Positions 4,487 through 6,620 of a stretch of DNA of 64,000 nt are shown here, in pieces. Position 1 is the stretch's first letter; the number at the start of each line of letters is the position of its first letter. The translations under genes were made by a program, and so were the position numbers. The notes beneath the pieces were generated by a model that was not told the origin of the DNA, did no database searches, and saw only the letters and a list, made by a program, of their open reading frames with translations. Source of the DNA: Candidatus Latescibacterota bacterium (GTDB lineage: Bacteria > Latescibacterota > UBA2968); NCBI GenBank assembly GCA_022821275.1, contig JAJEDY010000002.1, positions 92,561 through 156,560 of the forward strand. Direction: 5' to 3'.

Positions 4487-4875
4487 GGTCCTAATCTCCA
4501 TATTATATGGGGATAAAAATCCGCAGAAAACGACACATAACAGGCCGTTTCCCTGTTGAGAGTAATTTATATCCAAAAATCATTGCGATTACAGGTATCA
4601 GGGCTGAAGAATCTAATGAATGAAAAAAACCCTGTCAAGCCAAAATCTGCTTCAAATTAAACGAAATATAAATCAGTAGAGTTCCCGGTATATCCAACGC
4701 TGCAACAACATCTTATGAAAATTGTTAATTATTCCAGTTTTAAAATTTAAGATAACTAATTAACTCAGGGCGATATTAGAAGTTTGAGTTAATAAAAAAT
4801 AAAATATAAGCCGTAAAGATTGATGTCAACCCCTTTTCCAGAGACCATTGAGAACAAAATTCTATTTCACGCATA
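4487..4875. other. AT-rich intergenic region between divergent operons
   Basis: About 390 nt without a convincing gene. It must hold the promoter of the leftward TPR/exb operon and ends at the rightward promoter at 4876. The sequence is clearly AT-richer than its surroundings (4660-4800). I see no repeat, tRNA or open frame with a ribosome site in it. Confidence 0.6.
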
Positions 4876-4904
4876 TTGACAGAACAAAAGAGAAACGGTA
4901 TATT
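4876..4904 (+). promoter_or_regulatory. Housekeeping-type promoter (-35 TTGACA, -10 TATATT)
   Basis: TTGACA at 4876-4881 and TATATT at 4899-4904 with a 17-nt spacer, an almost consensus sigma-70 promoter. Start of transcription is expected near 4911, so the mRNA would begin about 27 nt before the micro-ORF at 4938. Confidence 0.8.
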
Positions 4905-4937
4905 TGGCAAATATAGTCGCGATTTTGGAGAACCATC

Positions 4938-5036
4938 ATGCACCAGAGGTTTTACACTTATTGTTGTCGCAAAAAACGGCGGGTTACACCTCCGCCAGGC
5001 CTCAGAGCGGAGTGTGTAACTGTGCCTGCCTCCTGA
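4938..5036 (+). CDS. 32-residue basic cysteine-containing micro-protein or leader peptide
   Basis: An ATG at 4938 with GGAG 7 nt upstream opens 32 sense codons ending in TGA at 5034-5036. The product begins MHQRFYTYCCRKKRR, then V-T-P-P-P-G, and ends ECVTVPAS. It is very basic in the middle, with three cysteines (9, 10, 26) and a triple proline. It has its own near-consensus promoter (4876-4904), and the stop codon abuts a strong terminator (5036-5070). The coding region also contains an RNA hairpin: GTTACAC plus CTCCGC (4983-4995) pairs with GCGGAG plus GTGTAAC (5007-5020) with one bulged T. I do not recognise the product. It is either a free-standing micro-gene or a leader peptide whose translation controls read-through into guaB 100 nt downstream. 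Confidence 0.6.
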   Translation: MHQRFYTYCCRKKRRVTPPPGLRAECVTVPAS

Positions 5037-5070
5037 ATCCCCTTGATGTGTCTGCGTCAAGGGGATTTTT
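5036..5070 (+). terminator. Rho-independent terminator after the micro-ORF, upstream of guaB
   Basis: Perfect 11-bp stem AATCCCCTTGA (5036-5046) / TCAAGGGGATT (5057-5067), 10-nt loop, then a run of T. It overlaps the last base of the micro-ORF stop codon, so a ribosome at the stop would cover its left arm. It ends 65 nt before the guaB start, so it either ends the micro-gene transcript or works as an attenuator. Confidence 0.85.
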
Positions 5071-5123
5071 GTATTCGCCCCAAAGAGAGAAAATAATCCT
5101 CATCGGCTTTCTCGACTTTATAG

Positions 5124-6620
<1,497 letters not shown>

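Follow-up and report, generated by a model that had tools for sequence, protein, structure and literature searches.

The leader that precedes guaB in one group of uncultured Latescibacterota, together with the tiny gene it carries, is probably a switch that turns guaB up or down. From comparison of MAG sequences we favor, with somewhat better than even confidence, a cis-acting transcription attenuator in which read-through of a terminator into guaB would depend on translation of a short leader open reading frame (ORF). A preliminary description of the locus had wavered between a peptide or RNA acting on its own and a translation-coupled attenuator of guaB. The comparison favors the attenuator, because the element is tied to guaB, no promoter-like site follows the terminator in the loci scanned, indels in the ORF keep the frame while its residues drift, and the stop codon sits at the terminator; it disfavors a stand-alone peptide or a trans-acting RNA.

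Layout of the leader and constraint on the micro-ORF

The window, a stretch of 64,000 nucleotides from a Latescibacterota MAG, lies in an assembly of 5.66 Mb, and the named relatives nearest to it are for the most part Candidatus Latescibacterota MAGs, with some filed under Gemmatimonadota. The promoter TTGACA-17-TATATT (4876..4904, forward strand, as are all features of the leader; -35 TTGACA at 4876-4881, -10 TATATT at 4899-4904, 17-bp spacer) would serve both the leader and guaB. It is followed by a Shine-Dalgarno (SD) sequence, GGAG (4927..4930), 7 nt ahead of the ATG of a 32-codon micro-ORF, MHQRFYTYCCRKKRRVTPPPGLRAECVTVPAS (4938..5036), whose ATG is at 4938 and whose TGA at 5034-5036 abuts the terminator. 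The terminator hairpin CCCCTTGA..GTCAAGGGG, with a U run and then GTAT, occupies 5035..5070; its stem, CCCCTTGATGT/GCGTCAAGGGG (5035-5068), has 11 bp, or up to 15 when G-U and A-U ends are counted, and is accompanied by a T run. The presumed target is the open frame at 5136..6620 (forward strand), which we take to be guaB (IMP dehydrogenase, central to making guanine nucleotides) from the earlier finding and general knowledge rather than from a family library; its product is 61-97% identical to proteins at loci from many phyla. Promoter, GGAG site, 32-codon ORF, terminator and guaB were thus all found where the preliminary description had placed them. Two other features lie within the micro-ORF, a hairpin at 4984..5019 and the element GTGTGTAAC at 5012..5020, which reads Cys-Val-Thr in the micro-ORF frame.

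The region is also present, at 77-96% identity, in ten further genomes of the genus. The preliminary description had staked its reading on conservation of the frame or the hairpin among close relatives, and the alignment bears this out: promoter, GGAG, ATG, ORF and terminator are kept in 11 of 11 genus genomes, including the divergent G008. The ORF differs in length by +3, -6 and +6 within the genus and by +21 and -12 within genus g6, so that each of the five clear indels within it has a length divisible by three; L023 has an insertion of 4 nt, which falls directly after the stop codon, outside the ORF. Comparing G008 with the other genus members gives a micro-ORF dN/dS of about 0.3, and in this most divergent pair the ORF frame was favored over random placement of substitutions (p = 0.0095; 0.84 and 0.46 for the other two frames), with one of the other four genus pairs at p = 0.036. 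Amino-acid changes in g6 were no better than random, and codon-level constraint there was not significant. These data suggest a modest constraint at the codon or protein level, and the SD sequence, the frame-keeping and the codon pattern point to translation of the micro-ORF.

The other genera of families f1-f3 show the same order upstream of guaB, namely a promoter, a short ORF (except in G021), the hairpin CCCCTTGA..TCAAGGGG and then guaB. Eight of nine genera have an ORF of 27-40 codons whose end falls between -8 and +16 nt of the stem, with an ATG and a strict SD in five of the nine (g1, g4, g6, g7 and g8) and weaker starts in g2, g3 and g5; g9, represented by G021, has no micro-ORF of this kind. 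In f1, g7 and g8 the stop codon is found at -8 to +2 nt relative to the stem; in g6 it comes earlier, 10-16 nt upstream. An ORF of at least 22 codons with ATG and SD that ends at the stem appeared in 0.5% of shuffled window leaders, and the frequency of an ORF with ATG and strict SD at the stem was 0.005-0.055 per leader in shuffles for the five genera. The peptides mostly drift between genera, yet they have basic residues and prolines in common, and a C-terminal Cys-Val-Thr-like motif occurs in five of the eight genera that have the ORF. With C[VA][TKP] in the last 12 residues, a pattern picked post hoc, none of 20000 shuffles reached five genera. Sequence related to GTGTGTAAC also stands before the terminator in several of the other genera, and the recurrence of C[VA][TKP] may mean that the RNA rather than the peptide is what is conserved. 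Neither Pfam nor NCBIfam gave a match above a cut-off for the micro-ORF peptide, and a functional peptide family was rejected on this ground.

The terminator hairpin and its tie to guaB

A covariance model of the terminator hairpin (R1) was searched over 64 genomes of the phylum. In all 22 genomes of families f1-f3, every guaB copy is preceded by one strong match (37-68 bits); these 22 include the sequences from which the model was built, and the independent results are the absence elsewhere and the absence of strong second copies. None of the other 42 genomes has a strong match (best, 25.2 bits), and none of the 64 has one away from guaB. G020, which carries two guaB copies on two contigs, has two R1 matches. 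The hairpin pattern occurs once per genome in five of six tested genomes, those that match it, indicating that it is not a generic terminator there; a generic repeated terminator was rejected on this single copy and on the lack of strong R1 matches off guaB. The divergent neighbor, presumably a TPR-like protein judging by its sequence, has likewise been retained through much of the order. Linkage by itself therefore cannot decide between the two neighbors, but the leader element points at guaB, not at the divergent gene. A divergent promoter-like site for this gene, TTGACA-17-TATTTT, is seen at 4801-4829 on the reverse strand, and its surroundings, TGTCAACCCCTTTTCC, are largely kept within the genus.

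Seven of the 12 hairpin pairs vary across sequences, two of them with two-sided changes. The outermost pair occurs as A-U, U-A, G-C and C-G, and five sequences do not form it. This variation, including the two-sided changes, suggests that the stem is selected. The inner sequence of the hairpin is conserved across families as well, not pairing alone. The terminators of g6 have a poor U-tract (TTTCCTGT), and G021, of the most distant lineage, keeps the hairpin without a T run.

From terminator to guaB the distance is 55-267 nt, 55-107 nt in most genomes and 162-267 nt, of unrelated sequence, in G008 and three g6 genomes. In G008 (L057/L030) this interval holds about 90 nt more, including a GC-rich inverted repeat (CAGGGGC...GCCCCTG), that the other genus members lack. 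When seven loci (the window, G008, G013, G015, G017, G018 and G020) were scanned for the sigma-70 consensus, no forward promoter-like site came up between the terminator and guaB; guaB is therefore most simply transcribed through the terminator and is probably expressed by read-through. The leader promoter was TTGACA-17-TATATT in six of seven scanned loci and TTGACA-17-TAGATT in L059; the scan of the window also gave two weaker 9/12 forward matches upstream of it, at 4556 and 4848.

Outside the phylum, R1 gave nothing above 16 bits at 63 guaB loci, and the presence of the same element in other phyla was therefore rejected. Other arrangements were seen there. Deltaproteobacteria-labelled MAGs (L069, L072, L084 and L094, and the incomplete L110) have a TTGTCA/TATAAx-like promoter upstream of guaB, and in four of four full loci a terminator, AAACCCAGGC...GTCTGGGTTTTTT, stands close behind the promoter, about 64 nt before guaB; this is possibly an independent promoter-proximal guaB attenuator. 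Acidobacteria MAGs (L074, L076, L077, L080, L105, L114 and L120) have guaB directly after an ORF with a SEC-C-like NDPCPCGSGKKYKKCCG tail, which we take from its sequence to be secA-like, and this leaves no leader of the micro-ORF and terminator kind there.

Leader RNA, proposed mechanism and alternatives

The leader RNA (4911-5073) folds at -63 kcal/mol, and all 200 dinucleotide shuffles were less stable (z = -4.5). The stability is largely due to the terminator, without which the leader body has z = -1.9. No fold is shared among the leader bodies of the genera (z about 0 in several). The hairpin within the coding region had been described as 13 bp; it is present, but has 12 pairs (4984-4995 with 5007-5019) and a single bulged base. 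Its conservation holds within the genus, where 98% of pairs are kept, with single mismatches in G007 and G006, and does not extend to covariation or to a shared fold in other genera; as a covarying structure it was rejected for want of compensatory changes. It may act as an RNA polymerase pause hairpin. Pairing with the 5' arm of the terminator was no better than in shuffles, and trp-type antitermination was rejected accordingly. No Rfam family matched the leader at the gathering threshold, and a relaxed E-value gave only sub-threshold matches; a riboswitch, purine or other, and a known sRNA were rejected on this basis. 6S RNA (RF00013) did not match the leader, nor did the Rfam model, which detects 6S in only 5 of 14 control genomes, find any in the whole genome G000.

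In the attenuation that we propose, polymerase would start at the promoter, with a predicted transcription start near 4911 and a leader of about 160 nt, and a ribosome would load at the GGAG and the ATG. A ribosome close behind the polymerase would reach the UGA, cover the abutting 5' arm of the terminator and physically block the hairpin, letting polymerase continue into guaB; if the ribosome lagged or was absent, the hairpin would fold and transcription would end near 5070. The lack of antiterminator pairing fits direct blocking by the ribosome. Read-through would be regulated, and two signals seem likeliest. Shortage of GTP may slow the polymerase so that the ribosome catches up, the mirror image of UTP sensing at pyrBI, a guess that fits the target gene; alternatively, the ribosome may stall near the stop codon, as set by the basic, proline and Cys-Val-Thr features of the peptide. 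A nucleotide-sensitive polymerase pause before the terminator is a candidate element of this scheme, with the internal hairpin and GTGTGTAAC as putative sites. The most specific version, a GTP-responsive, ribosome-coupled guaB attenuator in which the ribosome comes to rest on the stop codon at the sequence-conserved terminator through a nascent-peptide stall or a pause of the polymerase, is tentative, and we would call it doubtful as a whole. Work in E. coli found nearly complete repression by the ribosome where a terminator lies several bp past a stop codon; terminators within the first 100 bp of a coding region, by contrast, escape it unless the ribosome is coupled through a pause (PMC4824070). 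At the pyrL terminator, progress of the ribosome through proline codons decides termination, which is raised when ribosomes slow at these codons without EF-P (PMC5021804).

Blocking by a ribosome needs neither the conserved primary sequence of the hairpin nor the GTAT behind it, and sequence kept beyond pairing across families is not explained by it. Together with the U-poor tract of g6 and with G021, where the hairpin is present without T run or ORF, this leaves room for an attenuator run by a trans-acting protein or small ligand that recognizes the hairpin, the ORF being secondary. We regard such a factor as unlikely, since the genera share the ORF, apart from g9, and the placement of its stop, whereas the leader bodies have no shared stable fold, no mutually exclusive pairing was seen, and Rfam gave nothing beyond sub-threshold matches.

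A stand-alone micro-gene or small RNA with its own terminator, with guaB served by constant leak-through or by an unseen promoter, would agree with the completeness of the expression unit, with the long unrelated stretches before guaB in G008 and three g6 genomes, and with an AATAAT-like hexamer about 40 nt before guaB that is kept in most of the genus. It is nonetheless less likely than the translation-coupled attenuator and improbable in itself: the hairpin has no strong match away from guaB, the scanned loci have no promoter-like site after the terminator, the peptide is mostly unconserved between genera and falls in no Pfam or NCBIfam family, and the RNA body is unconserved. Least probable is a chance ORF in a structured leader of which promoter and terminator alone matter; the weak codon test in g6 and the drift of amino acids would suit it, but indels are in-frame only, the SD is kept and the stop codon is held at the stem.

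Comparison with known systems

No published counterpart of micro-ORF leader attenuation of guaB was found in the open literature searched, and several known systems share parts of it. Guanine (purine) riboswitches control purine genes through leader RNA, as is proposed here for guaB; the guaB leader differs from them in having no Rfam match and no conserved aptamer-like fold. Like trp- and his-type attenuators, it combines a translated leader with a terminator, but it has no mutually exclusive antiterminator, nor a stretch of codons for an amino acid that the regulated gene would produce. In leaders of the tnaC and speFL type, a ribosome stalled near the stop codon decides termination. The guaB leader resembles these arrest-peptide leaders in its short ORF with a candidate C-terminal motif close to the stop, and differs in that its terminator is intrinsic, not Rho-dependent, arrest is putative, and the motif occurs in five of the eight genera with the ORF. 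For comparison with this class, 3' ends linked to upstream ORFs have been described (PMC7815308).

The pyrBI operon of E. coli with its leader gene pyrL is like the guaB leader in that a gene for nucleotide synthesis follows a short leader ORF with an intrinsic terminator, and there the closeness of the ribosome to the polymerase decides read-through (PMC5021804, PMC4824070), as we propose for guaB. As in pyrBI-type control, one upstream promoter stands before leader and gene (by consensus scan of seven loci), the leader ORF reaches the terminator, and there is no antiterminator structure. The two differ in that the guaB ORF stops at the terminator and does not cross it, whereas the pyrBI terminator lies inside a 135-bp leader gene (PMC4824070), and in that guaB is a purine gene with a leader of unrelated sequence, for which GTP would be the presumed signal. 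If the proposal is right, the guaB leader would stand as the purine counterpart of pyrimidine attenuation, would give an uncultured phylum an inferred regulatory mechanism, and would offer a case of a micro-ORF, below the length of ordinary gene finders, that is retained from genus to genus for the position of its stop codon and not for most of its product.
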